Assembly: GCF_003841485.1 (NCBI RefSeq)
Contig: NZ_REFY01000005.1
Span: forward strand, 248,001 to 312,000
Length of the DNA: 64,000 nucleotides
Direction: 5' to 3'
Source of the DNA: Natrarchaeobius halalkaliphilus
Lineage (GTDB): Archaea > Halobacteriota > Halobacteria > Halobacteriales > Natrialbaceae
In this document: piece by piece, positions 4,376 through 47,672 of the stretch
Layout: every line of letters starts with the position of its first letter
Numbering within the stretch: the stretch's first letter is position 1
Notes under the pieces: model-generated
The model's input: only the letters and a program-made list of their open reading frames with translations
Database searches by the model: none
What the model was told of the DNA's origin: nothing
Translations under genes and position numbers: made by a program

Positions 4376-4435
4376 CCGCGCGGTTCGGTCGGTCCGCTGA
4401 CGCCGGCTACGGTCGAAATCTCGACGCTACCCAAC

Positions 4436-4446
4436 GTATATATACT
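4436..4446 (+). promoter_or_regulatory. TATA box for M20 amidohydrolase gene
   Basis: GTATATATAC lies about 28 nt before the ATG at 4469, which predicts a leaderless or nearly leaderless transcript. Confidence 0.6.
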
Positions 4447-4468
4447 CCCTCTAAAAACTAGTGAATGC

Positions 4469-6007
4469 ATGTCTGAAAGCGAAGCCTCTCCCGCGAAGCG
4501 GAGGGGGCGAGAGTGGATCGAATCGAATCGATCGAGCATCACGGAACTCTCCGACGAGGTCTGGGAGTGCGCGGAACCCGCCCTCCGGGAGTACGATTCG
4601 GCCAGAGCGCACGTTCGGTTCCTCGAAGAGCACGGGTTCGACGTCGAACACGGTATCGCCGGTATGCCGACGGCGTTCGTCGCAACATACGGGACCGACG
4701 GACCGGTGATGGGCTTCTACGCGGAGTACGATGCGACACCTGGAAACTCACAGGAACAAGCGACGATCGAAAAGAGTCCGATCGCCGAGGGCGGCTCCGG
4801 GTTCGAAGATATCCACAACGGTCTGGGAACGGCCGGGACTGCAGCAGCCGTGGCGACACGATACGCCATCGAAGCGGAAGATCTGGATGGACAGGTGAAG
4901 ATACTGGGGACCCCCGCCGAAAAACTCTGTATCGGAAAAGTGTACCTCGCACGCGAGGGATATCTCGACGATCTCGACGCGACGGTCGCCTGGCATCCAC
5001 ACTCACACAACACGGTGACTCGCTACTCCGGTCCGGGTCCGTACCGCACGGCGATCGTGGACTTCGAGGGCGTCGGGGTCTATGGAGGGAGTCCCTGGGA
5101 CGGAGTCAGCGCTCTCGACGCGGCGACTATGACGCTGAACATGGTCGAACAGATGAAAGAGCACGTTCCGCGGGACGCGTACCCATCGGTCAACGAACTT
5201 ATCACGAACGGGGGGCAGTGCCTGACGAACCTGCCGAAGACCACCCAAATCTGGTTCGCCTACCGAAGTCGCTCGCAAGCTCACGAGGTCCTCGACGAGA
5301 TCAGAGACACGATCGAGCGAGCGGCAGCCGCCGCCGCCGACGTGACCGGCGCGGAGTACGAGTTCCGTGAAGTCGCCGCGACGCGACCGTGGCTTCCGAA
5401 CACGGTGATGACCGACGTCGCGTACGAAAATATGGAGCAGGTCGGTCCGCCCTCCTTTACCGATGAAGACCGAGAGCTCGGTCGTGAGCTCCTCGAGGAA
5501 GTCGGCATTGATCCGCCTGAACGGCCGTTCGACGAGACGCTCTCGCCTCCCGAAGCGGAGGTCTGCGGAAACTTCAACCCCGACCTCGCGACGTACGTCG
5601 ACGAATTCGACTGGAACGAAGTCGGTGAGTTCAACTGGGCCGACGACGTCACGGAGTTCAGCTGGCACTCTCCGACGGCCTGGATCCACACGACGTACTT
5701 CCTCGAGGGCGCGTACGAATCGCGGCTCCCGACGTGGACGACCGCCGCACTCGCGACGACGAACGTCGCACACGAAACGATCTTGACGGCAACGAAGATT
5801 ATGACCGGAACCGCTGTCGATCTCCTGACCGAACCGGAACGTCTCGAGCGGGCGCAGGCGGAGTATCGAGAACGGACCGACGACGAGTACGTTCCCGTGC
5901 TTCTCGACGAAAACGTCGAACCGCCGACCGGTGCCGAAGATTCCTTCCCGCCGTTTTATCCGGAATCGTGGACAAACCCGGTCTACGCCGCCCGTTCGGA
6001 CAAGTAA
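4469..6007 (+). CDS. AbgB-like M20 amidohydrolase
   Basis: A 512-residue metallo-amidohydrolase resembling the p-aminobenzoyl-glutamate hydrolase subunit B branch of peptidase family M20. Visible blocks are AEYDATPGNSQ, HNGLGTAGTAAAVA, GTPAEKLCIGKVYLAR, WHPHSHNTVTRYSGPGPYR and a lid/dimerisation region that ends in FSWHSPTAWIHTTYFLEGA. The family normally has a Glu-Glu pair in the GTPAE block; here it is Glu-Lys. It should cleave an amide or N-acyl bond of an amino acid conjugate in the cytoplasm. It precedes the polyamine importer and has a distant paralogue at 10480-12093. Confidence 0.87.
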   Translation: MSESEASPAKRRGREWIESNRSSITELSDEVWECAEPALREYDSARAHVRFLEEHGFDVEHGIAGMPTAFVATYGTDGPVMGFYAEYDATPGNSQEQATIEKSPIAEGGSGFEDIHNGLGTAGTAAAVATRYAIEAEDLDGQVKILGTPAEKLCIGKVYLAREGYLDDLDATVAWHPHSHNTVTRYSGPGPYRTAIVDFEGVGVYGGSPWDGVSALDAATMTLNMVEQMKEHVPRDAYPSVNELITNGGQCLTNLPKTTQIWFAYRSRSQAHEVLDEIRDTIERAAAAAADVTGAEYEFREVAATRPWLPNTVMTDVAYENMEQVGPPSFTDEDRELGRELLEEVGIDPPERPFDETLSPPEAEVCGNFNPDLATYVDEFDWNEVGEFNWADDVTEFSWHSPTAWIHTTYFLEGAYESRLPTWTTAALATTNVAHETILTATKIMTGTAVDLLTEPERLERAQAEYRERTDDEYVPVLLDENVEPPTGAEDSFPPFYPESWTNPVYAARSDK

Positions 6008-6135
6008 TTTCGACTGTCGTCACTCGAGAATTACGCCGGATCGATTCGGAAGCGGTACCGTTTTTTCTGATGAGGGGTAATTTCTGGGACAGAGTTCGTT
6101 AATTTTCAACAGATACTGCCGTATACGACCGGGAG

Positions 6136-6148
6136 AATTATATAATAC
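6136..6148 (+). promoter_or_regulatory. TATA box for polyamine importer operon
   Basis: AATTATATAATAC is centred about 27 nt before the ATG at 6169, so the potD-like mRNA probably starts at or next to its start codon. Confidence 0.6.
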
Positions 6149-6168
6149 ACCTCCACATTATGTGATAG

Positions 6169-7275
6169 ATGTACACACGACGATCACTGCTTCGAACGAC
6201 TGGCGTAGCTACCGTCGCCACAGCGGGATTGGCCGGCTGTCTCGGCGGGAACGGTGATGACGAGGACGAGACGTCCGGGGAAGACGAACTGGCAGACGAA
6301 GTGAACGTGGCGATTTACGGTGGCGCGATGGGGGACGGGATATCGGAAACCATACTTGATGGGTTCGAAGACGAATACGACATCACGGTCAACGCGGAAA
6401 CGTATCCCGATAACTGGGATCTCATCGCTCAGGTGCAGGCCGGATCGACGGATCTGGACGTACTCATCTTGGACGACACCGCAGTTCCGTCGGCAGTGTC
6501 CGATGACCTCGTACAGCCGATACGGGAGGAAAACGTTCCGAACTTGGACGAGATCATGGCCGATTTCAGCCCGTACGAGCAGGCGTTCGACCCGGGTGAC
6601 GAGATACATTACGGGCCATTCCAGTTCTTCGGAGACGGCCTCGCCTACAACGCCGACGTGCTATCGGAGCCACAGTCCTGGGAAGACGTCTACACGGACG
6701 AGACGGAAGGGAGCGTCATCTACACGTCCTGGATCGACCGAGTCGTCGGTATCGCCGCGAGCCACGAGGGACTAAGCGTGAGCGAACTCGATCAGGACTC
6801 CGACGCGGAAATGGAGCAAATCTGGGACCGCGTCGAATCGATGAACGAGTACGTGTTCGAGTGGGCGGACACCGGCGGTATCCTTCAGGACTCGTTCGCG
6901 AACGAGCAAGCGCTGGCGGGAATGCTGTGGTACGGTCGGGTGGCCGCCCTCCAGGACGACGACGTCGCGGTCGAGTACACGATACCCGAAGAAGGCGCAC
7001 CGATGGCGACGAGCGGATTTTCGGTTTCGGCGGACACCAACAGACGGTACACGGCCGAGACGTTCATCGATTACACGCTCGATCCGGACACGCAGTACGA
7101 GTATTCGTCGGTGATGGGATACGCACCGACGGCCGAGATGGACGAGGTGCCGGAACTCGTCGAAAACAGCCCGGACTATCAGAACCGAGACCGTCTGAAT
7201 TTCTGGAACGCGTCTTTGCTGGTCGAAAACATGGAGGAATGGTCGCTCGAGTTCCAGGAAACGATCGGTGGGTAA
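6169..7275 (+). CDS. Polyamine-type ABC transporter substrate-binding lipoprotein
   Basis: A 368-residue extracytoplasmic solute-binding protein of the PotD/PotF type. The N terminus has a twin-arginine signal (TRRSLLR) followed by a hydrophobic stretch and a lipobox, LAGC, then a Gly/Asp/Glu linker, so it is a Tat-exported lipoprotein as is usual in haloarchaea. The mature part matches the spermidine/putrescine-binding fold (NVAIYGG start, VLILDDTAVPSA, then WGDVYT-like PQSWEDVYTDE). ATP-binding and permease genes follow on the same strand. Ligand is inferred as a polyamine or related cationic amine. Confidence 0.9.
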   Translation: MYTRRSLLRTTGVATVATAGLAGCLGGNGDDEDETSGEDELADEVNVAIYGGAMGDGISETILDGFEDEYDITVNAETYPDNWDLIAQVQAGSTDLDVLILDDTAVPSAVSDDLVQPIREENVPNLDEIMADFSPYEQAFDPGDEIHYGPFQFFGDGLAYNADVLSEPQSWEDVYTDETEGSVIYTSWIDRVVGIAASHEGLSVSELDQDSDAEMEQIWDRVESMNEYVFEWADTGGILQDSFANEQALAGMLWYGRVAALQDDDVAVEYTIPEEGAPMATSGFSVSADTNRRYTAETFIDYTLDPDTQYEYSSVMGYAPTAEMDEVPELVENSPDYQNRDRLNFWNASLLVENMEEWSLEFQETIGG

Positions 7276-7299
7276 CGACGGTGTCGAATAACGAACGAG

Positions 7300-7310
7300 A
7301 GAATTTATAA
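7300..7310 (+). promoter_or_regulatory. Second TATA box upstream of the ATPase gene
   Basis: GAATTTATAAC lies about 28 nt before the ATG at 7334 in the 58-bp gap after the binding-protein gene. It suggests that the ATPase and permeases can be transcribed separately from the binding protein, for which higher expression is usually needed. Confidence 0.5.
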
Positions 7311-7333
7311 CGATACGCTGTACACACCAACCC

Positions 7334-8485
7334 ATGGCATCGGCAAGCAGGCAGTCTCAGGGTGAATTGGACGAGTCCGAGAGTGACGTCATTTTGCGAC
7401 TGGACGGCGTGACGAAGAACTTCGGGTCCGTGACCGCAGTGGACGACGTCTCGTTCTCGGTTCGTAAGGGAGAGTTCTTCTCCATCGTCGGTCCGAGCGG
7501 GTGTGGAAAAACGACGACGCTGCGCATGATCGCGGGATTCGAACAGCCAAGTGACGGTCGAATCCTTCTCTCGTCGGAGGACGTCAGCCGCGTTCCACCA
7601 TACGACAGAGACCTCGGCATGGTCTTTCAGGGCTACGCGCTCTTTCCACACAAAACGGTGGGAGAAAACGTCGGTTTCGGTCTGAAGATGCAGGGTGAAG
7701 ATCCCGAAGAGCGACAGGAACACGTAGCCGACATTCTGGATCTAGTCGATCTCGCTGGCACGCAAGATCGGTACCCGAAGGAGCTGTCGGGCGGACAACA
7801 ACAGCGGGTTGCGTTGGCCCGGGCGCTGGTGATCGAACCGTCGGTACTTCTCCTCGACGAACCGTTGTCGAACCTGGACAGAAAGCTCCGCGAGGAGATG
7901 CGCTTCGAGTTGAAGCGCATTCAGGAAGAACTCGGTATCACGACGATCTACGTCACGCACGATCAAGAAGAGGCGATGTCGATGAGCGACCGCGTGTTGG
8001 TCCTCAACGGCGGCGAGTCGGAACAGGTCGCACCACCGTACGACATCTACCACCGCCCACGAAATCAGTTCGTTGCCGAGTTCATCGGCGACGTGAACAC
8101 GTTCCCAGGGACCGTCGAAGCAGTAACAGAAGACGATTATCACGTCGATCTCGAAACGGAAGCGACGGGCACGGTCGAAGTCAAACGGACGGTAGCGAGG
8201 AACGAGTTCGAGGTCGGTGACGACGTTCTGTTAAACGTTCGTCCGGAGGACTTCGAAATCGTCGAAACCGGCCACGGTGAGGACCGGTTTACGGGACAGG
8301 TGATCACGAGTACCTTCCTCGGCAAGCGGACGAACCTGCTCGTCGATGTGGGAGACCAACAGCTACTCGTCGAAGCATCCGGACGAATCGAGCAAGACGG
8401 GTCGAAGGCCGAAGACGCGATCACCATCTCGTGGAAACGCAACCAGTGTATTCTTACGGACGTAGATTCAGATCATGTCAACTAG
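7334..8485 (+). CDS. potA: Polyamine ABC transporter ATP-binding protein (PotA type)
   Basis: A 383-residue ABC ATPase that powers import. It has Walker A (GPSGCGKTTT, about residue 54), Q-loop, signature LSGGQQQR, Walker B LLLDEPLSNLD and the switch histidine in VTHDQEEA. The C-terminal roughly 130 residues form a TOBE-type regulatory domain (VRPEDFEIVE). Length and domain order match PotA/MalK-like importers. Its 3' end overlaps the next permease gene by 11 bp, so the two are translationally coupled. The symbol follows the gene context, not a proven substrate. Confidence 0.92.
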   Translation: MASASRQSQGELDESESDVILRLDGVTKNFGSVTAVDDVSFSVRKGEFFSIVGPSGCGKTTTLRMIAGFEQPSDGRILLSSEDVSRVPPYDRDLGMVFQGYALFPHKTVGENVGFGLKMQGEDPEERQEHVADILDLVDLAGTQDRYPKELSGGQQQRVALARALVIEPSVLLLDEPLSNLDRKLREEMRFELKRIQEELGITTIYVTHDQEEAMSMSDRVLVLNGGESEQVAPPYDIYHRPRNQFVAEFIGDVNTFPGTVEAVTEDDYHVDLETEATGTVEVKRTVARNEFEVGDDVLLNVRPEDFEIVETGHGEDRFTGQVITSTFLGKRTNLLVDVGDQQLLVEASGRIEQDGSKAEDAITISWKRNQCILTDVDSDHVN

Positions 8486-9398
8486 AGATCTCGTGCGGCG
8501 GGCAAATCGAGACGCGAGTATCTACTTCAGAGAGCACAAGAACCGCCTCGGATTGCTCAATCTCTTTCCGGGAATGGCACTCGTCCTGTCGCTACTCGGC
8601 GGTGCACTGGTTATTATCGGCGCATACAGCGTTATTACACCGGTACCTCCACAAGGAGACGTGTCGTTCACGTTAGAACACTACCGACGGTTCTTCGGAA
8701 CGTCGTACTACCTCAGCGTGCTGTGGGATTCGCTCGTCATCGCAATCGGAACGACGCTTCTGGCGTTTCTCCTCGGCTATCCAGCGGCGTACTTGCTTGC
8801 GACCACCGATAGCGAGCACAAGAATCTCTACTTGCTCATGTTGATCCTTCCGTTCTGGATCAACGTCGTCGTTCGAACTTACGCGTGGCGGCTTATCCTC
8901 GGTTCTGGAGGGTTAGTAGATTGGGTGCTCTACGACGTCACGGGCGTCGCCAACGAGTCCGTTCAACTGCTGTATTCGCGCGGTGCGATCGCCATTGGAC
9001 TCGTCCACGTGTTCCTGCCGTTCATGATCATTCCGATCTACGTCTCACTAGCCAGTATCGACCGCTCCGGCGTCGAAGCGGCTAAAAACCTCGGAGCGAA
9101 CAGGTTAGTCGCGTTCACCGAGGTGACGTGGCCACAGAGCCTTCCGGGTGTGGCAGCAGGAGTTCTTCTCGTGTTCGTGATGTCGTTCGGTGCCTTCGTC
9201 GTTCCGTCGCTGCTCGGTGGACGAGCGAACATCATGATCGCAAACGTCATCGGGGATATGTTTGGACAGTTACAAGAATGGGGGCTCGGAAGCGCCATTT
9301 CGATGGTCTTCATCGTCGTCGTCCTCACGATCGTGTACGTATTCAATCGATGGGTGAACCTCGGAGACGTCTACGGCATGGGAGGTGACTCGGAATGA
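8475..9398 (+). CDS. potB: Polyamine ABC transporter permease (PotB type)
   Basis: A 307-residue inner permease with about six membrane segments. The cytoplasmic EAA loop, which contacts the ATPase, is visible at about residues 197-215 (SGVEAAKNLGANRLVAFTEV followed by TWPQSLPGV). The ATG overlaps the end of the ATPase gene, and the stop overlaps the next permease by 4 bp, so the three form a coupled operon. N-terminal residues are more polar than usual and probably cytoplasmic. Confidence 0.9.
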   Translation: MSTRDLVRRANRDASIYFREHKNRLGLLNLFPGMALVLSLLGGALVIIGAYSVITPVPPQGDVSFTLEHYRRFFGTSYYLSVLWDSLVIAIGTTLLAFLLGYPAAYLLATTDSEHKNLYLLMLILPFWINVVVRTYAWRLILGSGGLVDWVLYDVTGVANESVQLLYSRGAIAIGLVHVFLPFMIIPIYVSLASIDRSGVEAAKNLGANRLVAFTEVTWPQSLPGVAAGVLLVFVMSFGAFVVPSLLGGRANIMIANVIGDMFGQLQEWGLGSAISMVFIVVVLTIVYVFNRWVNLGDVYGMGGDSE

Positions 9399-31371: not shown

Positions 31372-32370
31372 TTACAGCCCTCGAACTTCGAACTCCGTTT
31401 TGTACCCGTCGTCGCCGATGCGGTGGATTGCGTCCGTTATGTAATAATTCTTTTCGTACTCCGAACTAAATCCGGTCAGTTCGACCACCTCTCCCGCGAC
31501 GAGAGACGGAATTCCAAACGTCTTGGCAACCCCGGTAACTCGCGACGTGTGGAGTTTAGAATCGGCGATCCGCTGTGCCTCGGCCTGAGAACTGACTCGG
31601 ATACGAAAGACCTCCGGACTTCCACCGCTTCCGTTGTTCGCCTCTGCACTGATCTTCTTTCGTCGTTCTCGATCCCAGTACTTCACCACGACAGCACCGT
31701 GGCGCAACGCCTTCGTCGTCGCCGAAAACGACTCGAGTGACGAGCCATACGTCAACGTCGTGACTGGATCTCCCGGTGACACGCCGCCGTCTCGGGGCAC
31801 GAAGTAGAGTGTCCCGGCCGACGAGAAGAACTCGAAACCGTACTTCGCAGCGACTCGTTTGAGGAAACGGTAATCGCTTTCGTTGTCTTGGATAACACCT
31901 TGTGGTGTTATTCCACCGTCCTCGATTTCGATGTCCTCGAAGTAGTTCGAGGCGATCGACTCGACGATCGCCTCGAGCGACTTCCCCTTCCAGGAGTCAG
32001 AACGTGTCCCGCGCATCATCTTTCGGCTGTGGCCATAGGCCGTAACGACGATCCAGGGCGGCTCAGCCGTTGGAAACGTCGGTTCGACCGTTTCGACTTC
32101 GCCGCTGAACAACTGCGCGGAACTCTCTTCTCCGTACGCCATCCCGACACTGACCCCTGTTCCCGGACCGATAGAATCCAGCGCGACGTTCTTGAACGAG
32201 CCGAACTCATGATCGAACGGGGGGGTCAGCGCGATCCGACAACGGTCAGCGCCGTCGACGGCAGTATCGACGGTCACTTCCGAGACGCTTTCGCTGTATT
32301 CGCGGAACGTTTCGGTTCCAATTTTGACGACGAACTGTGCCGCTTTCGCGCCCGGATACATCTCCCCCAC
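31372..32370 (-). CDS. gpD-like baseplate hub protein
   Basis: A 332-residue hub protein of the phage late control D / T4 gp27-like family. It has an N-terminal beta barrel (AQFVVKIGTETFREYSESVSEV), then TAYGHSRKMMRGTRS, SNYFEDIEIED and the typical ESDYRFLKRVAAKYGFEFF block, and a C-terminal barrel (YYITDAIHRIGDDGYKTEFEV). In short systems this and the gpV spike together do the job of one VgrG. GTG at 32370 leaves 2 nt after the small upstream gene; ATG 32361 is the alternative. A near-perfect ATAACACC-N4-GGTGTTAT palindrome falls inside the gene (31892-31911). Confidence 0.88.
   Translation of the reverse strand: MGEMYPGAKAAQFVVKIGTETFREYSESVSEVTVDTAVDGADRCRIALTPPFDHEFGSFKNVALDSIGPGTGVSVGMAYGEESSAQLFSGEVETVEPTFPTAEPPWIVVTAYGHSRKMMRGTRSDSWKGKSLEAIVESIASNYFEDIEIEDGGITPQGVIQDNESDYRFLKRVAAKYGFEFFSSAGTLYFVPRDGGVSPGDPVTTLTYGSSLESFSATTKALRHGAVVVKYWDRERRKKISAEANNGSGGSPEVFRIRVSSQAEAQRIADSKLHTSRVTGVAKTFGIPSLVAGEVVELTGFSSEYEKNYYITDAIHRIGDDGYKTEFEVRGL
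31892..31911. promoter_or_regulatory. Palindrome matching the site before the cap gene
   Basis: 8-bp arms ATAACACC and GGTGTTAT around TTGT. It differs by one base (in the spacer) from the palindrome at 46909-46928. It lies inside the hub gene, so its sequence is also constrained by coding; a regulatory role is a guess. Confidence 0.3.
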
Positions 32371-32372
32371 GG

Positions 32373-32543
32373 TTACCCTCGAATGCGTGTGACGGTCCCG
32401 CCGAGGAGAGCCCCAGCGACCGTTCGCGTCGGTGACGCAAATCGTTCACTCCGACCAGTGTACTCGTGGTTGACCCGCCGATGGACGCCGACTCGGAACC
32501 CCAACAGCGCTGCCGTGATCGCCGGTGACAAATGGCTCGTCAT
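32373..32543 (-). CDS. Small 56-aa protein between LysM and hub genes
   Basis: A 56-residue frame that fills the gap exactly. Its ATG overlaps the LysM-gene stop as ATGA, and its TAA is 2 nt before the hub gene GTG. The product begins MTSHLSPAITAALLGFRVGV, with a short hydrophobic N-terminal helix followed by an Arg/Thr-rich stretch. I know no family for it. Tight overlap on both sides is the main evidence that it is translated. Small proteins of unknown role are common at this position in CIS clusters. Alternatively the frame only maintains translational coupling across the gap. Confidence 0.55.
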   Translation of the reverse strand: MTSHLSPAITAALLGFRVGVHRRVNHEYTGRSERFASPTRTVAGALLGGTVTRIRG

Positions 32544-33175
32544 AGCGGCGGAAGAGAGAGTTTGGTCCCCGGCGGGATCTCTCGAGGATTCTCGAGTTCG
32601 TTGGCCTCGGCGATCGTCCGCCAGTGGGATGGATCACCGTACTCCGCTGCCGCGATGAGCCAGAGCGTGTCACCTTCGGACACCGTTTTGAGCTTCGTTT
32701 TGTCCGTCGATTCGTGTTTGATCCGTCGCTTTTGCTGTTTCGGATCTGCGTGCTGTTTGAATGTGACGTCAACCCAGGCCCGCACGGGCGTTCCGTCGGG
32801 CCGAAAGCGCGTAAAGCGTTTGTCGGCTTCGACGACGATGGATTTGAACGCCAGGCCGTTTCCCCAGACGAACCGACACGATGGCGGAGCGTGGAGTTTG
32901 CCGTCGACTGCCATCAACGAGTCGATCACGTCCGTGTACTCCGTTCTGACGTCCGCCTGCGTCTCGGTGGTATCGAAGAACAACTCAACAGTAAGCGTAT
33001 CCGCAACGCCGTTCGTGAACTGCTGTATCGGAGCGTTGAGTGCCGTTCGATGCTCGCCGTATCCGGCCTGCCTGTTCAACTGATACTCATTGGGATTGAA
33101 CGCACACTCGAGTTTCGTCCCGGCGTTGCTACCGTCGAGAATCGTAATGTACGCTCGCTCTAGAGACCCGCTCAT
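32540..33175 (-). CDS. LysM-containing baseplate protein (Afp7/Pvc7-like)
   Basis: A 211-residue protein. The N-terminal domain has the CIS pattern LECAFNPNEYQLNRQAGYGEH...ADTLTVELFFDTTE and W-V-D-V-TFKQHADPKQQ. A C-terminal LysM module (about 163-210, TVSEGDTLWLIAAAEYGDPSHW...PGTKLSLP) is typical of the T4 gp53-like family, where LysM clamps neighbouring wedges rather than binding peptidoglycan, which haloarchaea lack. Its ATG follows the stop of the disordered protein with no gap. Confidence 0.9.
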   Translation of the reverse strand: MSGSLERAYITILDGSNAGTKLECAFNPNEYQLNRQAGYGEHRTALNAPIQQFTNGVADTLTVELFFDTTETQADVRTEYTDVIDSLMAVDGKLHAPPSCRFVWGNGLAFKSIVVEADKRFTRFRPDGTPVRAWVDVTFKQHADPKQQKRRIKHESTDKTKLKTVSEGDTLWLIAAAEYGDPSHWRTIAEANELENPREIPPGTKLSLPPL

Positions 33176-36100
33176 CTACAGCCCCCTTCTCTCGCGGTCG
33201 ATTTGTCTTTTTCGTTCGGTTTTCCGATAGATCTTCTCGACGAGATCGTCGATGAGGCCCCTCGACTGGAGCACCGCCTCGAGGTCCACCTGATTGACAC
33301 CGTCTCGACGCCGTGGCTGGACAAGACTTGCGTCGTCTCGCGGCTGCCGGGGCTCGTTTGTCGCACCTGGATACGCGGCCGATTCTTCGATGGCACCAGT
33401 CGGTTGCGGAGGGTCCGATACCGTCGGTTCGGAACGCGTCGTCCCCGTTCGAACGGACTCGCTCGACGGATCTGGAACAACTGGAGGAGTGGCGTCTGGA
33501 TGGACCACTCGTTCGCTGGACCGAGCCGGCCCCCTCACCGGAGGGAGTTTCGCGTGAGTGAACGCCGGATCGGGCTGCCCGTTCACGGCTCGCCTTCGAC
33601 CCGACCGCCTACCTGTGGTCGATTCGTGGACAACAGTTCGTGTCAGCTCGTCCGTCGACCGGTCAACGGCGTCGCGGCGCTGGATTGCTCCCGTCAGTGA
33701 CCTCCATGCGGGTCGTTTCGGTAACAGGTCGGGACGGTCGCTCGCACCTGATCGCTTCCGCGTGGACGGCTCGTCCTCCGAACGCGAGACGGATGGTGGA
33801 GTGATGTCGTCGCGGGTTCCCCGTGACCGTCGGGTGCCGTTCCACGGAGCCACAGTGCTCCGGTCGGTGACGAACACGGTGCCGGTCCCTCTTCGAAGAG
33901 TACGCACCGGGTCTTCCCCGGCGGCCATCGAGTCTAGCGGTGCCGAACGCTCTCGAAAGTCACCGCTCGAGTCCGCGTCCGAGTCGACGCCCCCGTGCTC
34001 GTGAACGTCATTACGTGACGACGAACGCCGCTCGGCTGGTACCCGCCCTCTCTGTGGAGTCAGACCGGGAGCGGTCATCGGGCTTGCCGTGGTGACGACA
34101 TGTCGCCGCTGCACCGAACGGACGAGTTGGCCGCGCGAACGCGGCTCCTCGACGTCCCCCAACGATCGAGCGGCAACGCCCCGGGACGAGACGGCAGCTG
34201 CCGCAACTTCCACTCCTCGAGACGTCGCTCGAGAAGGACTCTCGGGTTCCTGACGGGGAGTTTCCGCCGCGAAGTCTCCATTCGCTGTCTCGAGGGGGTC
34301 GGTGGTCTTGGGCCGCGGCGATCGGTCGCCCTCGACACTTCGGGACCGGGGGGTTCGATGGGTGTGCGAGCTGTACAACCGGCGTGAGTCGCCGCTAGCT
34401 CGATCACTGCGAGCGGGTGGTTCCGGCGAGGACGTTGTGATCAGCGTTCCGGCCGGCCCCCGATCGGATTTCCGTATCCCGCTCCCGGTTCGATTCACCT
34501 TCCTTGCGGAGTCGCGTGGTGGTGTGTATCGTTGCTGGACGGCCGCGGTAAACCGCGCTCGCACCCGTTCGACCGAGTAGGCATCGGGGACGTCCCCCAC
34601 CGGAAGCTCGATGGGATGGTCCCCGGTATCTCCCGTGGAACCGCTGTGGATTGCGGGCTTCGATCCGAGAGTGCGATGTGAACGCGAGTGACCGGCCTCG
34701 ACCGGGGCGGATTCAGCCGTGGTCGGCCGGGGTGAGTGACCGTGGGCACTCGCACGTCCAGACGGGGCGGGGTTCTGGCCGTATTCGGCTCGGGAGCTCG
34801 CTGATTCGGGGCCTGATTCGGTGTCAAATAACGGGGCGGATGCAAGGCCGGGCACAGGAATGTACAGCTCTCGAAGCGGGTACGGAGCCGACGAACCGGC
34901 GCGGGTGCTTGCGTCACGGCGACCAGGTATCGAACCGACGCGAGTGGGTGCACGACGGCGACGAATTGACCGCGCGAAGGTGGTCCCCGATCGACCGCTC
35001 GGCGAGACGGATCGGTCTCCGGCAGGAACCGATGTGGCGGCCAACTCCCAACCACCGATCGAATGCGTCGTCGGCCCCTCGAACTCCGGGCGGGAACGAT
35101 CGAGAGGGGGACGAGCAACAGACTCGGTCGCGTGAGCTTCCGCTGGCTCTGACCGGGAGCGTTCGCTGGAACCGCCTGGTCGTAATCCGGGTTGTTGAGC
35201 GGCGCCTCGAGGAAGGTTTCGTGAGTTGTTCGGCTCCGGCACATGGTTCGATGCTGCCAGTTCACCCCCTGACTTCGAGCCCGACGCGGACGACACTCGG
35301 GTCGATCTCGCATTCGACCCGTGAGAGAGAGCTACATTCGCGGGTACACCGGAACCAGCGGTTCGACGGCGTCGAATAGAACGGGCGAACGATTCACCGG
35401 TAGATCGCGCCGAAACGCGGTCTGGTGGGTTCCCTGACACCGACGCGTCCCGTCCGTCCCACTCGTCCTTTCGGACGGGACTGGCGGTACCCCGCACGCC
35501 GTCGACGTGGTGGCGTGACGCCCATCGCCGCGAGCGTGACCCAGGAGACGACCGAACGGTACCCGTCCTCGATCCGCCTTCGCGTCCGCTTCCGCGTCCA
35601 GTACCGCGTGACGGTGCTCTCGTCCGTGCAGTCTGCGTTCTCCTCTTGGTCCCCTGCCTCGGCTCCCCCTCGCGTCGGTTCGTTGCCTCTCCCGACCGAG
35701 CTGGGTCCACCGGAAATTCGTCGGTCTCCACGTGGCGCGACTCCGTAATACGTCCTGGAACGGTTCCGTACGCCGTCCGCTTCGAACCGGTCCAGCGTCG
35801 CGAGGTGTTCGCACGCACTCGAGAGCTGGACGAGCGGCCGTGGACCACTGGGATGTTGGCTGAACCGTTCGACCCATCCGTACCGATAGTGTCGGCAACG
35901 CCCTGCAAGTCAGATTCGGGTGGATCGATCGGACCGACTCGACCGTCCGTACCGCCCGAATCAACTGGGCCGAAGGTATCGAGCACTCCTGGCGCGGTCG
36001 CACCGTCCGACGAACCCGTTGCTTTTGGGAATCGGTACGAGGGAGAACGCGTCGAGGCGTTGGAACTCGAGAGTGACTGGCGCTGAATTCGCCGACCAGT

Positions 36101-36466
36101 TTTTTCCCGTCGAACCGATTGCGAGCGTCGATGGGGTGAACGAGAGGCGTGATCGGCGAGGGAATCGTGCCGTGAACTCCCCCATCGGTCGGCGTCTTCG
36201 TCGTGATCCTCGAAGAACTGCAGTTGGGTCATCGGCACTTGCGGGATTTGCCTGACGCCGATGGGAAGCGGCTGCCGTTTTTTCGACGAACCGAACGGCT
36301 CGGACCGGACCATCGAGTTCCCGTGACGACGGACAACTGACTCGAGGGGGCCGTCGCGACCGACGCCAGCGACGTCACGGTCGACAGTTCCGAGAGCGTC
36401 ATTGGGGACCTGAGAAGCGATCGAGCGCACCGTAAGGAGGTCCGGCACGCGATCAGTCGACGTCAC
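33176..36466 (-). CDS. 1096-aa Arg/Ser-rich disordered protein with spaced RRR motifs
   Basis: I recognise no folded domain except a short C-terminal helix (VDLEAVLQSRGLIDDLVEKI, then RKTERKRQIDRERRG). The rest is low-complexity Ser, Arg, Gly, Pro and Thr. By hand count there are about 159 Arg and 20 Lys, a very basic protein in an acidic proteome. A motif of the form Phi-x-R-S/A-Phi-R/Q-R/Q-R recurs, its hydrophobic anchors at residues 364, 501, 643, 785, 857 and 928, so steps are 137, 142, 142, 72 and 71. It sits between tube and LysM genes, where phages encode chaperones and tape measure. The start is GTG 36466; the first 100 residues have normal haloarchaeal codons. Its role is unknown: ruler, scaffold or cargo adaptor. 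Confidence 0.72.
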   Translation of the reverse strand: MTSTDRVPDLLTVRSIASQVPNDALGTVDRDVAGVGRDGPLESVVRRHGNSMVRSEPFGSSKKRQPLPIGVRQIPQVPMTQLQFFEDHDEDADRWGSSRHDSLADHASRSPHRRSQSVRREKTGRRIQRQSLSSSNASTRSPSYRFPKATGSSDGATAPGVLDTFGPVDSGGTDGRVGPIDPPESDLQGVADTIGTDGSNGSANIPVVHGRSSSSRVRANTSRRWTGSKRTAYGTVPGRITESRHVETDEFPVDPARSGEATNRREGEPRQGTKRRTQTARTRAPSRGTGRGSGREGGSRTGTVRSSPGSRSRRWASRHHVDGVRGTASPVRKDEWDGRDASVSGNPPDRVSARSTGESFARSIRRRRTAGSGVPANVALSHGSNARSTRVSSASGSKSGGELAASNHVPEPNNSRNLPRGAAQQPGLRPGGSSERSRSEPAEAHATESVARPPLDRSRPEFEGPTTHSIGGWELAATSVPAGDRSVSPSGRSGTTFARSIRRRRAPTRVGSIPGRRDASTRAGSSAPYPLRELYIPVPGLASAPLFDTESGPESASSRAEYGQNPAPSGRASAHGHSPRPTTAESAPVEAGHSRSHRTLGSKPAIHSGSTGDTGDHPIELPVGDVPDAYSVERVRARFTAAVQQRYTPPRDSARKVNRTGSGIRKSDRGPAGTLITTSSPEPPARSDRASGDSRRLYSSHTHRTPRSRSVEGDRSPRPKTTDPLETANGDFAAETPRQEPESPSRATSRGVEVAAAAVSSRGVAARSLGDVEEPRSRGQLVRSVQRRHVVTTASPMTAPGLTPQRGRVPAERRSSSRNDVHEHGGVDSDADSSGDFRERSAPLDSMAAGEDPVRTLRRGTGTVFVTDRSTVAPWNGTRRSRGTRDDITPPSVSRSEDEPSTRKRSGASDRPDLLPKRPAWRSLTGAIQRRDAVDRSTDELTRTVVHESTTGRRSGRRRAVNGQPDPAFTHAKLPPVRGPARSSERVVHPDATPPVVPDPSSESVRTGTTRSEPTVSDPPQPTGAIEESAAYPGATNEPRQPRDDASLVQPRRRDGVNQVDLEAVLQSRGLIDDLVEKIYRKTERKRQIDRERRGL

Positions 36467-36685: not shown

Positions 36686-37129
36686 TTAGGCCATCTCGCG
36701 ATCCATCTTGTCGTAGGAGATGGTAATGATGATCTTGATCGCTTCGCCGCCACTGAGCGTGTCTCCGTACTCGTACTTGACCATCCGTGCGTTGGTGAAT
36801 TTCCAGCGGACGACGGGGTTGTCGCTGGGGTCCTTGGCCGTGACGCTAATCACCTGCTCGTGTTCGTCGTCGCTGAAGTCTCGCATCGCCTCCCACCACT
36901 TGTCGATCGCCGATTTCCCGCTTTGGGCGTAGAGTTCCGCGGTGAAGGTTCCCCCAAAGTCGGGTTGATCGGCGTGTTTTATCGGGTGTCGTGGTCCCGA
37001 GCCAACCTGGTGTTCGATGACCGGAATGTTCCGTTTCGGTAGGTTCACCCGGAAGAACTGAGGCACTTCTCGACCACCAAAGTCAACGTCGAAGTCATCG
37101 GATTCGATCGGTGTCGATGTAACTGGCAT
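36686..37129 (-). CDS. Tail tube protein (gp19-like), main tube candidate
   Basis: A 147-residue inner tube protein. It shows the gp19/Pvc-tube pattern: FFRVNLPKRNIPVIEHQVGSG, FTAELYAQSGKSAIDKWWEAM, RWKFTNARMVKYEYGDTLSGG and a final strand IKIIITISYDKMDRE. Tube rings stack through these beta hairpins. The frame runs on 24 codons upstream over the preceding gene, but the ATG at 37129 is 4 nt after that gene's stop and matches the usual N terminus. Confidence 0.88.
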   Translation of the reverse strand: MPVTSTPIESDDFDVDFGGREVPQFFRVNLPKRNIPVIEHQVGSGPRHPIKHADQPDFGGTFTAELYAQSGKSAIDKWWEAMRDFSDDEHEQVISVTAKDPSDNPVVRWKFTNARMVKYEYGDTLSGGEAIKIIITISYDKMDREMA

Positions 37130-37133
37130 CGGA

Positions 37134-37574
37134 TTACTCTTCCTCCATGTAGTCGACGGAGATGACGAACATCTCGGTCGCCGTGTCCGACCGCATGGCA
37201 CACAACGTCGGTGGATGATACTCTTTGACCCACGTTCCGGTGAACTTCAGCGTGGAAATCGTCGTGGATTCCTGATCTTTGATGAAGATCGTGAGCGGCT
37301 TTTTGATCGCGCTGGTGTCCCCGGTTGTCGCTGCCAGATCGTGTTCGTCGTACAGCTTGGTGGACATGTCCGCCTTGATGTCGCGGTGGACTACGAGGTC
37401 GCCGAACAGCAACCTGCCCTGGGTTTCCTGTACCGGGTCCGGGTTCCCGTTGTCGTGGGTGATCTGCTCGATTCGTTGCTCGGGAAGTTCGATGTCGGTG
37501 ACCGTTGGAATCTCATCGCCGTCGTGTTCAAAGGTGAAATACGACGACTTGAGAAGTCTGATATCTGCGGACAT
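37134..37574 (-). CDS. Tail tube-like protein, second copy
   Basis: A 146-residue gp19-family protein (YFTFEHDGDEIPTVTDIELPEQRIEQI; LLFGDLVVHRDIKA; LKFTGTWVKEYHPPTLCAMRSDTATEMFVISVDYMEE). It is shorter and more divergent than the next tube gene, so it may form a tube-initiator or adapter ring rather than the main tube, as inferred for accessory tube paralogues in PVC/Afp. It starts 4 nt after the sheath stop. Confidence 0.85.
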   Translation of the reverse strand: MSADIRLLKSSYFTFEHDGDEIPTVTDIELPEQRIEQITHDNGNPDPVQETQGRLLFGDLVVHRDIKADMSTKLYDEHDLAATTGDTSAIKKPLTIFIKDQESTTISTLKFTGTWVKEYHPPTLCAMRSDTATEMFVISVDYMEEE

Positions 37575-37578
37575 TGGA

Positions 37579-39312
37579 TTATGAGTCTCCGGTCCACTGA
37601 CCGATTCTGAAGATCACGAACTCAGCCGGCTTCACCGGAGCTACACCGATCTCACAGATCAGCCGTCCGTTGTCGATATCGTCTTGGGTCATCGTCGATC
37701 CCTTTCCACAGTCGACGTAAAATGCCTCGCTGGCCGAGGTGCCCATCAACGCACCATCGCGCCACTGAGTCGTCAGGTACTGTTCGATTGTCTGAGTCAC
37801 TCGAGCCCACAGGTCCTGGTCATTCGGTTCGAAAACCGCCCACTGGGTTCCCTCGTCGATCGATTGCTTGAGGAACAGGAACAGACGACGAACGTTAACG
37901 TACTTCCACTCGGGATCGCTCGAAGTCGTCCGAGCGCCCCAAACGCGAATCCCACGCCCCTGGAAGCTCCGGATGCAGTTGATTCCCTTCGGATTCAGGA
38001 TGTCCTGTTCAGCTTTCGTCAGGTCGACCTGTAGCGACATCGCACCGCGGACAACCATGTTCGCAGGTGCTTCGTGGACGCCGCCTTCGTTGTCGTTTCT
38101 GGCGTAAATTCCGGCGACGTGACCGCCCGGCGGAACCAGTTCCTGAACCCCTTTTTCAGGGTGCATCACGTTGATCCAGGGGTAGTAATACGCCGCGTAC
38201 GTCGAGTCGGCTGGCGTCTCGTGATCGGCCACCGGATCGGGGTTTTGCTCGGCTTGTAGCACCGCAATCCGTTCTTTCATGTTCTCACAGTGGGCGACGA
38301 GCGCTTCCGTCAGCCCGGGAACGTCGTTCTCATCGGGCGCGCAGACGATCGAAATGTTTGAGATCTCTTCGAACGCAGCGAGGCCCGTTCGCTGCCCGGG
38401 CGTTCCGTCGCCCTCATAGTCACCAACCGTTACCCCGTCGCCGCCGTCGGTGAGGAGTTGCGCTTCGCTCGCGGCTTTAACTTCCTCGAGCAGTTCGGGC
38501 TTGTTCTGATCGGTATCGACGTCGAGTTCCTCGGCGACTTCGACCAGTTCGTCCTTGGTCATGTCCTCGAGTTCGTCCCCGTCGGGGAGATCCGGACCCT
38601 CGCCGCCATCATCGCCATCGTCGTCGCCACCGTCGGCCCCGTTTTCGCCACCGTTGACGCCGCCATCGGTGCTTGCAATCTTGAGCCAGACGGTCTGGTT
38701 CTCCGGCCGGCCGTCGCCCAGTTTTTCGATCTCGATGAAGTTGGACGAGCCCTCGATCGCGCTCTCGTAGTACTGGGTCGACCCTTCGTCAGCATTGATC
38801 TCGTCGAATCGTTCTTCGTTCGTCGGCATCGGGTCCGGCTCGTCGCCGTCGGGGTCTTCGACGTCGTCGGGATCCGCATCCGACCAGTAGCGGACGGTGA
38901 GGCCGAACACCGTGTTGTCCGAAGCGGACATCGGTGCGTCGGTAACCGTTACGGCGACCTGTCCACCCCAGTCACCCGGCCCGACCGCTCGAGCGCCGAT
39001 GACGTCGTCTCCATCGTCGTTACTCAGCGTCGCAGTACCGACGTCGGAGCGGGAAGCGTCCGTGACGCGCCCGACGAACGCTCTACTGCCGCCGTTTTTG
39101 AAGAAGCCGTCGATAGCGTGAGTGAGAAACGAATCGTCGACGTAGCCGCCGAACTTTCGTTTGTAATCGTTGAATCCGGTCACGAGCTGCGGTTTGAGCG
39201 GCCCGCGTTCTGTCTGTCCGAGGAATCCTGCTGTGCTGGTGCTTACGCCTTCGACGGATTTGGATCCTTCCGTCTCTTCGACGTAGACACCCGGTGAGAG
39301 GTATTCTGGCAT
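37579..39312 (-). CDS. Contractile sheath protein with Rho_N/SAP-like insert
   Basis: A 577-residue sheath subunit. N-terminal MPEYLSPGVYVEETEGSKSVEGVSTSTAGFLG and the C-terminal half (YYYPWINVMHPEKG; PPGGHVAGIYARND; GINCIRSFQGRGIRVWGARTTSSDPEWKYVNVRR; VAPVKPAEFVIFRIGQWTG) are diagnostic of the tail sheath family. Between them is a variable outer domain with an acidic Gly/Asp linker (215-246) and a helical module at 247-281 (EDMTKDELVEVAEELDVDTD) that looks like a Rho N-terminal/SAP fold. Only one sheath gene is present, whereas PVC/Afp have three. The insert would face outward on the particle. Confidence 0.92.
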   Translation of the reverse strand: MPEYLSPGVYVEETEGSKSVEGVSTSTAGFLGQTERGPLKPQLVTGFNDYKRKFGGYVDDSFLTHAIDGFFKNGGSRAFVGRVTDASRSDVGTATLSNDDGDDVIGARAVGPGDWGGQVAVTVTDAPMSASDNTVFGLTVRYWSDADPDDVEDPDGDEPDPMPTNEERFDEINADEGSTQYYESAIEGSSNFIEIEKLGDGRPENQTVWLKIASTDGGVNGGENGADGGDDDGDDGGEGPDLPDGDELEDMTKDELVEVAEELDVDTDQNKPELLEEVKAASEAQLLTDGGDGVTVGDYEGDGTPGQRTGLAAFEEISNISIVCAPDENDVPGLTEALVAHCENMKERIAVLQAEQNPDPVADHETPADSTYAAYYYPWINVMHPEKGVQELVPPGGHVAGIYARNDNEGGVHEAPANMVVRGAMSLQVDLTKAEQDILNPKGINCIRSFQGRGIRVWGARTTSSDPEWKYVNVRRLFLFLKQSIDEGTQWAVFEPNDQDLWARVTQTIEQYLTTQWRDGALMGTSASEAFYVDCGKGSTMTQDDIDNGRLICEIGVAPVKPAEFVIFRIGQWTGDS

Positions 39313-39788: not shown

Positions 39789-40247
39789 TCAGCTGGTTCG
39801 GGCGTCGAGTGACTCGTAGGCGAGTTCGAGCCGTTCGATCGAGAGTCCGGTTTCCTCTCGGTCGGATCGTGCGTTGGCGACGAGTTCCGGACCATCCCAC
39901 CGCACTGGATAGGCATTGATCAGGACCCACGTCCATCTGGTTCGATCCTCCCGATCTTTCATCGCAACGCTCACTTTCGATCGGACGTCGGCTCTCGCCC
40001 CCGACAGCGATTCCATGATCCAGTCGAGAAATCCGTCGTCGTCCGTCACTCCGCGATGAAGCGTGACGTTCGAGTAGGCCACGTCGCTCGGAAACGTATG
40101 CGTAACTTCGTGGAGTCCACCCTCACGATACTCGAGGACGTTCGATTCGGCACCAAGTCCTGAAATCCTGGTGAAGCCACCGACCATGTCGTCGTCGATG
40201 CGTACTTCGTACGTGAAGTTCGTGTACGGGCTGTCGTGTCCGGTCAT
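39789..40247 (-). CDS. Tail tube-like protein, first in operon (Pvc1/gp54-type position)
   Basis: A 152-residue gp19-family protein: SPYTNFTYEVRIDDDMVGGFTRISGLGAESNVLEYREGG, HRGVTDDDGFLDWIMESLSG and VLINAYPVRWDGPELVANARSD. It starts 5 nt after the stop of the DUF6760-type frame. It is likely to be a tube terminator/initiator ring because a separate main tube gene follows the sheath. Confidence 0.85.
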   Translation of the reverse strand: MTGHDSPYTNFTYEVRIDDDMVGGFTRISGLGAESNVLEYREGGLHEVTHTFPSDVAYSNVTLHRGVTDDDGFLDWIMESLSGARADVRSKVSVAMKDREDRTRWTWVLINAYPVRWDGPELVANARSDREETGLSIERLELAYESLDARTS

Positions 40248-40252
40248 AGGTG

Positions 40253-40498
40253 TCAGATCATCTCCTCGAGGTTCGCGACGGGGAGGTCATCGACCCGGTG
40301 ATCGGGATCGAGTGAGGTATCCGAACCGCCCGCCTCGTTTTTCTGTTCGTTTATCTGGCTAATGTTGCGGCACCAGCGCTGTCGTTCCCAGTGGGGAAGC
40401 TCGAGTATCTCCTGGCGCGACCAGTTGAAGTAGTACGCGACGAACGCGATTTCTTCGTAGAGCCGCTCCGTTGGATACGGGTCGATTCCCGTTACGAG
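40253..40498 (-). CDS. DUF6760-type frame, reached by -1 frameshift from the chaperone
   Basis: 81 codons reading PYPTERLYEEIAFVAYYFNW, then SRQEILELPHWERQRWCRNI, a pattern I recall for small CIS/phage proteins encoded directly after the tail-assembly chaperone. In-frame, the upstream stop is the TGA at 40523-40521, and between it and the conserved block there is no ATG, GTG or TTG. The frame overlaps the end of the chaperone in the -1 phase, across a GGGAAAC heptamer. The expected product is a chaperone fusion of about 225 residues made by a fraction of ribosomes. An unusual start codon is the alternative. Confidence 0.75.
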   Translation of the reverse strand, partial: LVTGIDPYPTERLYEEIAFVAYYFNWSRQEILELPHWERQRWCRNISQINEQKNEAGGSDTSLDPDHRVDDLPVANLEEMI

Positions 40499-40519
40499 TT
40501 TCCCGGTTCGCTGTCCTCC
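40478..40519 (-). promoter_or_regulatory. Candidate programmed -1 frameshift signal
   Basis: Three elements in order on the minus strand. GGAGG (40519-40515) can pair with the 16S anti-Shine-Dalgarno. After 10 nt comes the heptamer G GGA AAC (40504-40498), of the X XXY YYZ type and in phase with the chaperone codons GGA and AAC. After 5 nt comes a hairpin, ACGGG with CCCGT around a 6-nt loop. The chaperone TAA is at 40494-40492. Spacing resembles the E. coli dnaX signal, and the heptamer resembles lambda GGGAAAG. Confidence 0.7.
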
Positions 40520-40929
40520 TCAGCAGTTGTCTTTTCACCCTGGTCGACATTCAGTGGTTCGTCAGGTTCAATCGACGAGGTCGAGTCGGCGGTTTCGTCA
40601 TCGGGGACCGTCACGTCCTCGAAGTCTGTGCGGCCGTCGTTGATTCGTTCGTACAGTTCCTGAAGATACTCCAGGTCCGGAACGAACAGAGACTCGACGA
40701 CGTCGGGTGACACCTCGTCAACGGTGCCAATCTGTGTGGTGACGCGGGAAAGCAGAAGGACGGTCAGATACGATGCGTTCTCTTGCACGCGAGGATCGTT
40801 CAGCGGTTTGATTTCGTCCGCAGCAGTCGCAAGACGCATCCGGCCGTCCCTGTGAACGGTACCCTCGTCGTCGACGTATCCTCTGGGTAGTGTGAACTCG
40901 AATTCCGTCTGTAGGCTTGGCTGAGACAT
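40492..40929 (-). CDS. Tail-assembly chaperone-like protein, first gene of CIS operon
   Basis: A 145-residue protein with the conserved CIS/phage pattern TEFEFTLPRGYVDDEGTVHRDG...RLATAADEIKPLNDPRVQENASYLTVLLLSRV and SLFVPDLEYLQELYERIN, followed by an acidic tail. It occupies the place of phage tail-assembly chaperones (lambda gpG-like role). The frame opens at ATG 40959, but the only good TATA box (40956-40967) lies over that ATG and predicts transcription from about 40935, so I use ATG 40929. Its last codons carry the -1 frameshift signal. Confidence 0.85.
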   Translation of the reverse strand: MSQPSLQTEFEFTLPRGYVDDEGTVHRDGRMRLATAADEIKPLNDPRVQENASYLTVLLLSRVTTQIGTVDEVSPDVVESLFVPDLEYLQELYERINDGRTDFEDVTVPDDETADSTSSIEPDEPLNVDQGEKTTAEEDSEPGNS

Positions 40930-40955
40930 CTCGTGGCTGATAAGCGTATTCGAAA

Positions 40956-40967
40956 GCATATATACGT
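40956..40967 (-). promoter_or_regulatory. TATA box of the CIS operon
   Basis: On the minus strand ACGTATATATGC, centred about 27 nt before a start site near 40935 and so about 33 nt before ATG 40929. It is the strongest promoter-like element at the head of the 25-kb minus-strand operon. Confidence 0.55.
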
Positions 40968-46772: not shown

Positions 46773-47069
46773 GGCGATACCTCAGTGGCACTGTAAATAA
46801 TTGTTTTGATAGGTGAGTAGAATCACCGGTCAGCGTTCCTTCGCTGACTGACATCATCGGTTGACAGCTGTTTTAGCTCAACGATAACTCGGTGAGGATT
46901 CGAGTTGTATAACACCCTGTGGTGTTATTTTAGATCGCAATCAGAGGTGGAACGGTGAGAGCCAGTAATGCCGCAATTGCTAAGAAGCTATAAAATATCG
47001 GTTCAGTATGGGACACAGATACGAGCGAACCCCGTTTCGACGGTGCTACCGTCGACCAGGAGGAACACG
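46773..47069. promoter_or_regulatory. Regulatory gap before the cap gene
   Basis: 297 bp between the divergent methyltransferase and cap genes. It holds the palindrome at 46909-46928, which runs into a TATA-like TTATTTTAG. Transcription from there would begin near 46955, leaving a roughly 115-nt leader to the cap-gene ATG; the leader is open in frame from ATG 46968, so an N-terminal extension cannot be excluded. Confidence 0.45.
46909..46928. promoter_or_regulatory. Candidate operator palindrome
   Basis: 8-bp arms ATAACACC and GGTGTTAT around CTGT. It adjoins the putative TATA element of the cap gene, where a repressor would block TFB/TBP. The same 20-mer with one changed base lies in the hub gene at 31892-31911, and one arm lies upstream of the sheath gene at 39415-39422. 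Confidence 0.45.
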
Positions 47070-47672
47070 ATGAACGGCTTCGGAGCGGTTGCTGAGGCGA
47101 GTGACCTGATCGTCGAGCGTCTTCGCGAAGAAACTGACTCTAGAGGCGACGTGACAACTGTTGAACCATCAAATATCGTCCTCGCGTCACCCGATGACGT
47201 CACGGGTAACGGGAACGTAAGACTCTCGGTGTTCCCCTATAAGATCAGTCACGAGCCACGTCACGGAAGTCCGGGGCGAATTCAGACCCAGGCGAATACC
47301 TTCAAAAACCCGCCGCTGCTCCTCTCGTGTTACTATCTGGTTACAGCGTATCCAGGATCGGCCACGGACGCGTCGGCGAAGGTACAGGACCAACAGATTG
47401 CACTCGGCCTCGCGATGCAAATCCTCCACGACAACGCCCAATTCGAGACGGAGCACCTGCAGGGAGAGTCCAGTGCAGTAGAGGCGTTCCAGGTGGCCCT
47501 GCACTCCGATTCGAACGACGAAATCGAGCGTATCTGGGACACGTTCGTCGACGTTCCGTTACACCCCTCGGTCGTCTACGAGGCGTCTCCAATTCCGATC
47601 GAATCGACGACTGAGGAACGTGTCACCCGGGTTTCCGAGCGTGATCTGGATTTACACGACCGCAGAAAATGA
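47070..47672 (+). CDS. DUF4255/Pvc16-like cap (tail terminator) protein
   Basis: A 200-residue protein of the Pvc16 N-terminal (DUF4255) type, which caps the tube and sheath at the end opposite the baseplate. Visible blocks: MNGFGAVAEASDLIVERLRE, VEPSNIVLASPDDV, VRLSVFPYKISHEPRHG and the typical PPLLLSCYYLVTAYPG, followed by QQIALGLAMQILHDN. The ATG at 47070 has a GGAGG 6 nt upstream and matches the expected N terminus; ATG 46968 would add 34 unconserved residues. It lies on the opposite strand from the CIS operon, about 6 kb before its start. Confidence 0.85.
   Translation: MNGFGAVAEASDLIVERLREETDSRGDVTTVEPSNIVLASPDDVTGNGNVRLSVFPYKISHEPRHGSPGRIQTQANTFKNPPLLLSCYYLVTAYPGSATDASAKVQDQQIALGLAMQILHDNAQFETEHLQGESSAVEAFQVALHSDSNDEIERIWDTFVDVPLHPSVVYEASPIPIESTTEERVTRVSERDLDLHDRRK

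Follow-up and report, generated by a model that had tools for sequence, protein, structure and literature searches.

In phage P2, the tube gene is followed by the E/E' chaperones, T (the tape measure), U and D, and the tape measures of phages and R-type bacteriocins (P2 gpT, 80alpha, T5 and diffocin CD1366), like Afp14, are encoded before the tube-tail and hub genes. The diffocin tape measure is a trimer of an 817 amino acid (aa) protein that extends over 1388 Å and 32 layers, with its N-termini at the collar and residues 795–817 forming helices anchored on the spike, and its gene precedes the tube-tail and hub genes (PMC11329794). For the contractile injection systems (CISs) of haloarchaea and of Streptomyces, published studies report no tape measure, and Streptomyces particles are still of equal length (PMC11566945; PMC10066040; PMC12237407); every S. 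coelicolor particle has 61 sheath layers though the tape measure gene is “absent” (PMC12237407). For the type VI secretion system (T6SS) of Halogeometricum borinquense, cis6, cis14 and cis19 were not identified, and the same study found neither plug nor tape measure nor crown (PMC11566945). Here we describe a gene in a 64,000-nucleotide stretch of Natrarchaeobius halalkaliphilus DNA (contig NZ_REFY01000005.1, positions 248,001 to 312,000; the window), in a cluster of the same kind as those of H. borinquense and Haloferax elongans. Its product, the cis6-slot protein, is a component of a haloarchaeal CIS of the T6SS-like type, and an unconventional tape-measure role is the best-supported single hypothesis for it, ahead of a plug with a long tether and a scaffold for cargo.

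Two other kinds of component bear on this gene. The plug (Cis6, Alg6 or Afp6; DUF5908, ∼50 aa) has a helical C terminus and a flexible part that reaches the lumen, and its deletion abolishes assembly; the tube lumens of characterized CISs are negatively charged (PMC8894135; PMC8894136). Among effectors, Tme of Streptomyces davawensis is tape-measure-related and ∼70% disordered, and its gene lies immediately upstream of baseplate genes (PMC11126660). In Streptomyces, effector loss empties the lumen but particles still assemble (PMC10066040). In clusters related to ours, effectors are encoded nearby and are secreted in a T6SS-dependent manner (PMC11566945).

Results

A family defined by gene slot and C-terminal helix

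The gene lies on the minus strand, runs from a GTG start at 36466 to 33176, and has a possible ribosome-binding sequence, GGTGGTGA, just 5' of it.

33176..36466, minus strand: cis6-slot protein, arginine-rich and disordered, 1096 aa (open frame and translation, composition, AlphaFold2, in-frame constraint in relatives)
33179..33283, minus strand: conserved C-terminal helix and tail, residues 1062–1096, with the family signature ending ERxRRG[LF] (tail profile and alignment of relatives, AlphaFold2)

An initial annotation, made from the sequence of the window, had described a very basic, disordered protein with about 15% arginine among otherwise acidic proteins, encoded between the tube and LysM genes and apparently conserved only in a short C-terminal helix, and this description was confirmed. 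A tube gene and the LysM gene, cis7, adjoin the open reading frame (ORF), which is now placed on the minus strand. The protein contains 14.5% arginine, 1.6% lysine and 11.8% aspartate plus glutamate, for a net charge of +48, compared to −2 to −161 for the other CIS-cluster proteins of the window. In the AlphaFold2 prediction, 1056 of 1096 residues have a predicted local distance difference test (pLDDT) score <50 and the single confident helix spans C-terminal residues 1062–1094; charge-hydropathy also places the protein on the disordered side. Searches of Pfam, PHROG and NCBIfam with the protein gave no family match, and DNA tandem repeats in the gene amounted to just two weak 12-bp arrays.

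We found a cis7 match in 40 of the 292 haloarchaeal genomes searched, and each of the 38 other haloarchaeal loci read has, immediately before cis7, a long ORF whose arginine-rich, lysine-poor product ends in the same helix; the tail is degenerate in L068, the sole such case among the haloarchaeal loci read. Enrichment of arginine and depletion of lysine are general (R 8.8–16.8% and K 0–1.9% in 39/39 haloarchaeal members), whereas strong basicity, although correct for the window protein, was rejected as a family trait since net charge spans −58 to +87. In a cis7 scan of named genomes, the tail was present in the ORF adjacent to cis7 at 75 of 80 loci (E ≤ 0.01), reaching into Bacillota (including Paenibacillus), Cyanobacteria (Scytonema), Pseudomonadota, Methanothrix and Chloroflexi (Anaerolineae), with a longest member of 2481 aa; no other ORF among 8172 matched the tail profile below E 0.4. 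Additional relatives were examined in Nostoc, Rhizobium, Paenibacillus and Embleya plasmids.

The tails share the consensus D-V-D-R-L-V-[DE]-x-L-Y-R-x-L-E-R-K-x-R-I-E-R-E-R-R-G, in which hydrophobic residues recur every 3–4 positions, a spacing that is compatible with an oligomerizing helix. The window protein carries both marks by which we assign membership, a tail helix ending ERxRRG[LF] and a gene directly before cis7. A Paenibacillus relative is likewise predicted with low confidence over most of its length, save for the C-terminal helix and short scattered helices, and sequence searches of the PDB with the tail or with a Nostoc relative returned no meaningful match. We conclude that slot proteins form an unnamed family in which the C-terminal helix is near-invariant and the body, mostly disordered, evolves fast and varies greatly in length.

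Gene order and comparison with known tape measures and plugs

The structural genes around the slot gene are as follows.

31372..32370, minus strand: cis8a, hub (gpD/gp27-like; matches to phrog_52 and phrog_4930, baseplate hub)
32540..33175, minus strand: cis7, tube initiator with LysM domain, directly downstream of the slot gene (domain search: CIS_tube and LysM; weak P2 GpU match)
36686..37201, minus strand: tube protein (gp19-like), directly upstream of the slot gene; true start probably internal (domain search)
37134..37574, minus strand: tube protein (gp19-like; domain search)
37579..39312, minus strand: cis2, sheath (domain search)
39789..40247, minus strand: tube protein (gp19-like; domain search)
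40492..40959, minus strand: tail assembly chaperone, acidic, 155 aa, possible partner of the slot protein (PHROG match, phrog_508)
46968..47672, plus strand: cap or tail terminator (Pvc16_N; domain search)

The cluster also holds spike, PAAR-like, gp25-like and baseplate genes, the first three labeled from read translations and the gene order of annotated relatives. The cap gene is oriented opposite to the structural genes, with unrelated genes in between. In those checked clusters where the sheath could be seen, the genes usually run in the order sheath, tube, chaperone (phrog_508), DUF6760, second tube, slot, cis7 and hub. The window and L031 are order variants, and no DUF6760 gene was detected in either; the chaperone gene of the window is located 5' of the tube genes, whereas in related clusters it lies between two tube genes together with the DUF6760 gene. 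The slot gene nevertheless sits where a tape-measure gene is expected, between the tube/chaperone genes and the tube-tail/hub genes.

The initial annotation had seen no ordinary tape measure, and genome-wide family searches agreed, since neither of the two tape-measure families tried gave a match over the cut-off in this genome; matches below the cut-off are uninformative, as the same searches also match in most of 14 control genomes. A profile search for the DUF5908 plug in this genome likewise found none.

Compared with known tape measures, the slot protein is alike in its large size, its variable-length middle, its short C-terminal helix and the presence of a tail-assembly-chaperone gene in the cluster, and it resembles the diffocin protein in position, in a C-terminal helix of similar size and in a free middle. 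It differs in that there is no detectable sequence similarity and that its body is predicted to be disordered, while theirs is a helical coiled coil; no tape-measure profile in Pfam, PHROG or NCBIfam matched it, and it is not predicted to be mostly alpha-helical. With the DUF5908 plug it shares the slot before cis7, a C-terminal helix and a flexible part expected in the lumen, but it lacks the N-terminal strand motif (EI+EL) and is 20 times longer. Homology between the tail and the plug was not supported: hhalign gave a probability of 0.3%, although the corresponding helical segments were aligned. The solved plug sequences, Alg6 and Asl3322, had been found with a DUF5908 query. Thus, the slot protein belongs by sequence and fold to no tested tape measure or plug family, but may share their working mode.

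The Streptomyces proteins Tme and Sle1 are also large proteins in CIS clusters, and Tme is largely disordered, but the features of Tme (DUF4157, transmembrane helices, an endonuclease domain) and those of Sle1 (a coiled coil, a globular domain) were not seen in the slot protein; domain searches found neither DUF4157 nor another effector domain in it. Two Streptomyces plasmids carry large low-complexity ORFs of 1381 aa (L156, 4324–8469) and 906 aa (L157, 5745–8465). These lie after the chaperone/DUF6760 genes and before the second tube gene, where a tape measure might be encoded, and resemble the slot family in position and composition. Homology of their tails to the family was not supported, since profile scores were not convincingly above those of shuffled sequences, and we consider them positional analogues only.

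Constraint on the body and two length classes

Between close relatives, the ratio of nonsynonymous to synonymous substitution rates (dN/dS) is 0.50–0.77 in the well-aligned part of the body, 0–0.3 in the tail and 0–0.06 in cis7, and substitutions in the body favor the third codon position (e.g., 217/185/320). Therefore, the long frame is translated, with weak constraint over the body and strong constraint on the tail, as the initial annotation had anticipated for the helix. It might still be argued that the true gene is confined to the C-terminal part and that high G+C alone keeps the rest of the frame open, given that the gene table of Haloferax larsenii lists only the last 177 aa and that a composition rich in Arg, Ser, Pro and Gly looks like off-frame translation. 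However, the frame is open over 422–2365 codons at 39/39 haloarchaeal loci, the body shows the third-position bias and a dN/dS below 1, and the N-terminal region, at the far end of the frame, is conserved in the long clade, so that we find an over-read ORF scarcely credible and the least probable of all the explanations considered here.

Haloarchaeal slot proteins fall into two length classes, 1096–2365 aa and 422–625 aa, and the cis7 tree separates one class from the other as a clade (support 99/98); the protein of Halogeometricum pallidum has 546 aa. Zachs et al. distinguish two haloarchaeal clades, of which one, with 29 strains, has a membrane-anchor gene and includes H. borinquense and H. 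elongans (PMC11566945); H. elongans carries a long member (2365 aa, L087), and the long class is likely this first clade. The slot family is not described in the available part of their account of the haloarchaeal T6SS (PMC11566945). Long-clade members have a conserved N-terminal region, FA.RI..R....L.FR. An N-terminal module common to haloarchaea and Bacillota is suggestive only (hhalign P 3e-4, probability 40%) and is not recognizable in the window protein. Short-clade haloarchaeal members (L061–L068) have an N-terminal motif of their own at approximately residues 50–90, PF.G.L...LSYLTL, unlike that of the long clade.

Motifs and their spacing

The initial annotation had also pointed to six motif anchors between residues 364 and 928, at steps of about 71 or 142 residues, as possible marks of a ruler. 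The core pattern [VIL][RQ][RQ][RG] occurs at exactly these six sites, none of which is conserved in relatives (pattern search).

35366..35377, minus strand: motif core site 1, residues 364–367, IRRR
34955..34966, minus strand: motif core site 2, residues 501–504, IRRR
34529..34540, minus strand: motif core site 3, residues 643–646, VQQR
34103..34114, minus strand: motif core site 4, residues 785–788, VQRR
33887..33898, minus strand: motif core site 5, residues 857–860, LRRG
33674..33685, minus strand: motif core site 6, residues 928–931, IQRR

Six occurrences compare with 1.0 ± 0.97 expected (p 0.001), and their best period is 70.5 (70.5–71 residues; Rayleigh R 0.99), with P of 0.0013–0.0015 when periods of 20–200 are scanned or ∼0.01 if six of eight random sites may be chosen. 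These P values are optimistic, since the pattern was written post hoc to fit the six sites; for this reason, we consider the regularity to be real but modest, and a feature of one protein only. The strict motif, Phi-x-R-[SA]-Phi-[RQ]-[RQ]-R, is found 3 times in the window protein (0.0 expected) and once in total in 30 other long haloarchaeal members. Motif spacing in relatives was like random placement, and neither hydrophobicity spectra nor local self-alignments revealed a 71-residue spacing in them. Thus, the six anchors and their steps were confirmed, but the proposal that they mark off length had been tied in advance to their conservation in orthologues, and neither motif nor spacing is conserved. 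We rejected 71-residue periodicity as a family property, since no tested relative has that spacing, and a 71-residue periodic ruler is not supported by the family's sequences. In L031 there is a suggestive ∼70-residue phase of LSYL/SLVV motifs, noted post hoc.

All that the family shares in this respect is a weaker, directional motif with irregular spacing, [LIV][LIV][QHYF]R. Its enrichment is 3.6-fold among haloarchaeal members and 4.4-fold among bacterial ones, with no enrichment of its reversed three-residue form; one conserved LVYR site supplies part of the haloarchaeal excess. Motif number rises with length in bacterial members (Spearman 0.77), while motif density in haloarchaeal members is low and erratic (0.14 per 100 aa).

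Discussion

We favor a tape-measure-like role for the slot protein because the family is conserved, the gene occupies the position of a tape measure, a chaperone gene is present in the cluster and no canonical tape measure was found over the cut-off in this genome with the two families tried. The initial annotation had suggested a ruler, a scaffold or an unconventional tape measure; this general idea gains support from the family, the position and the chaperone gene, but the mechanism by motif ruler does not. The specific form that we put forward, tentatively and as falling just short of probable, is that of a spike-anchored, disordered chain that occupies the lumen and does the job of a tape measure by its total length. 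The C-terminal helices of probably three copies would dock in the spike/hub cavity, in the manner of the final helix of tape measures from phages and diffocin, and the arginine-rich, lysine-poor chain would run up the tube lumen while tube rings add around it, with total chain length, and not motif periodicity, signaling the cap to stop. The small chaperone encoded nearby might maintain the solubility of the chain before it is enclosed by the tube, and the short hydrophobic-basic motifs might make weak, irregular contacts with the tube wall. Such a protein would do both jobs reported missing, those of the plug and the tape measure. An arginine-rich chain would suit a negatively charged lumen, such as those of characterized CISs, and the family fits the published gap because a tape measure is reported absent in S. 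coelicolor and in H. borinquense. As a check of scale, for plausibility only, the 220-nm contracted length of the H. borinquense sheath and the S. coelicolor ratio give ∼361 nm extended, which chains of 1096–2365 aa can span between their helical and extended limits. That one fast-evolving, disordered ruler of contour length, anchored by a helix in the spike, has replaced both coiled-coil tape measure and plug in a large CIS lineage (haloarchaea, Bacillota, some Cyanobacteria and others) is a bolder claim, which we hold to be conceivable but on balance doubtful.

Several observations weigh against a ruler. The predicted body is not helical (AlphaFold2), unlike that of known tape measures, and the tail is not demonstrably homologous either to the plug helix (hhalign) or to the Streptomyces tails (profile compared with shuffles). 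The H. borinquense study reports cryo-electron tomography without lumen density, has no slot protein among the secretome proteins that it describes, and calls sheath lengths heterogeneous in a figure legend (PMC11566945). Disordered chains could be invisible in cryo-electron tomography; poor tryptic detectability was rejected as the cause of the absence from proteomes, since 56–67% of residues fall in tryptic peptides of 7–30 aa. Moreover, slot proteins of Natrinema altunense (L057) and N. pallidum (L058) differ in length (1852 and 2154 aa) though their Cis7 proteins are identical. This drift suggests weak selection on length; either the particles themselves could vary in length, or the protein could have no function as a ruler.

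The same drift would be expected if the slot protein were a plug with a long tether. The C-terminal helix would then be the one part that counts, nucleating assembly within the spike cavity like Alg6/Cis6, and the body would be a weakly constrained, disordered extension into the lumen that measures nothing. The shared cis6 slot, the architecture of the known plug with its requirement for assembly, and the restriction of strong constraint to the tail all fit this explanation, but there is no sequence link to DUF5908, the body nowhere falls below hundreds of residues, with thousands in some members, and its length class follows phylogeny, neither of which a useless tether needs, and length control would stay unexplained; we regard it as unlikely, if less so than the other alternatives. 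A little less likely still is a cargo scaffold, a multivalent chain held by its tail in the lumen or spike that binds effectors (e.g., DUF4157 proteins) through short motifs. Enrichment of the directional motif, its increase with length in bacterial members and the T6SS-dependent effectors encoded nearby in related clusters are what one would expect of a scaffold, whereas the sparse, erratic motifs of the haloarchaeal members are not, no effector gene was recognized in the annotated parts of the window, and cargo and assembly are separable in Streptomyces. Finally, the slot protein might itself be a payload that acts in the target cell, for which Tme, disordered and encoded next to baseplate genes, is a precedent. 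Since it has no toxin or DUF4157 domain, no folded domain beyond the tail helix, a poorly conserved body and no dedicated immunity gene between its gene and cis7, we consider delivery as an effector very improbable.

With a lumen-occupying chain as the preferred reading, this analysis names a conserved ruler candidate for haloarchaeal, Bacillota and some cyanobacterial systems, with a positional counterpart in Streptomyces; if it is correct, length control needs no coiled-coil ruler. A disordered molecular ruler of this kind is not described in the literature searched, and the family is partly unannotated. Natural length variants make the question of length directly testable, by comparison of the long and short clades or of the Natrinema pair, whose slot proteins are 16% apart. 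The tail signature helps to find genes that automatic annotation can miss. In H. larsenii plasmid NZ_CP078064.1 (L069), the slot ORF (1860–8819) encodes 2319 aa, and the gene table has only 8286–8819. Because only this last part is listed, the full protein may be absent from databases, and annotations of public genomes may under-represent the family. In the nearest relative of the window by cis7 (G350; L163, 1–200), the slot protein is at least 2043 aa long, with its frame open at the contig start, and begins with GDGIGVLG octapeptide repeats.

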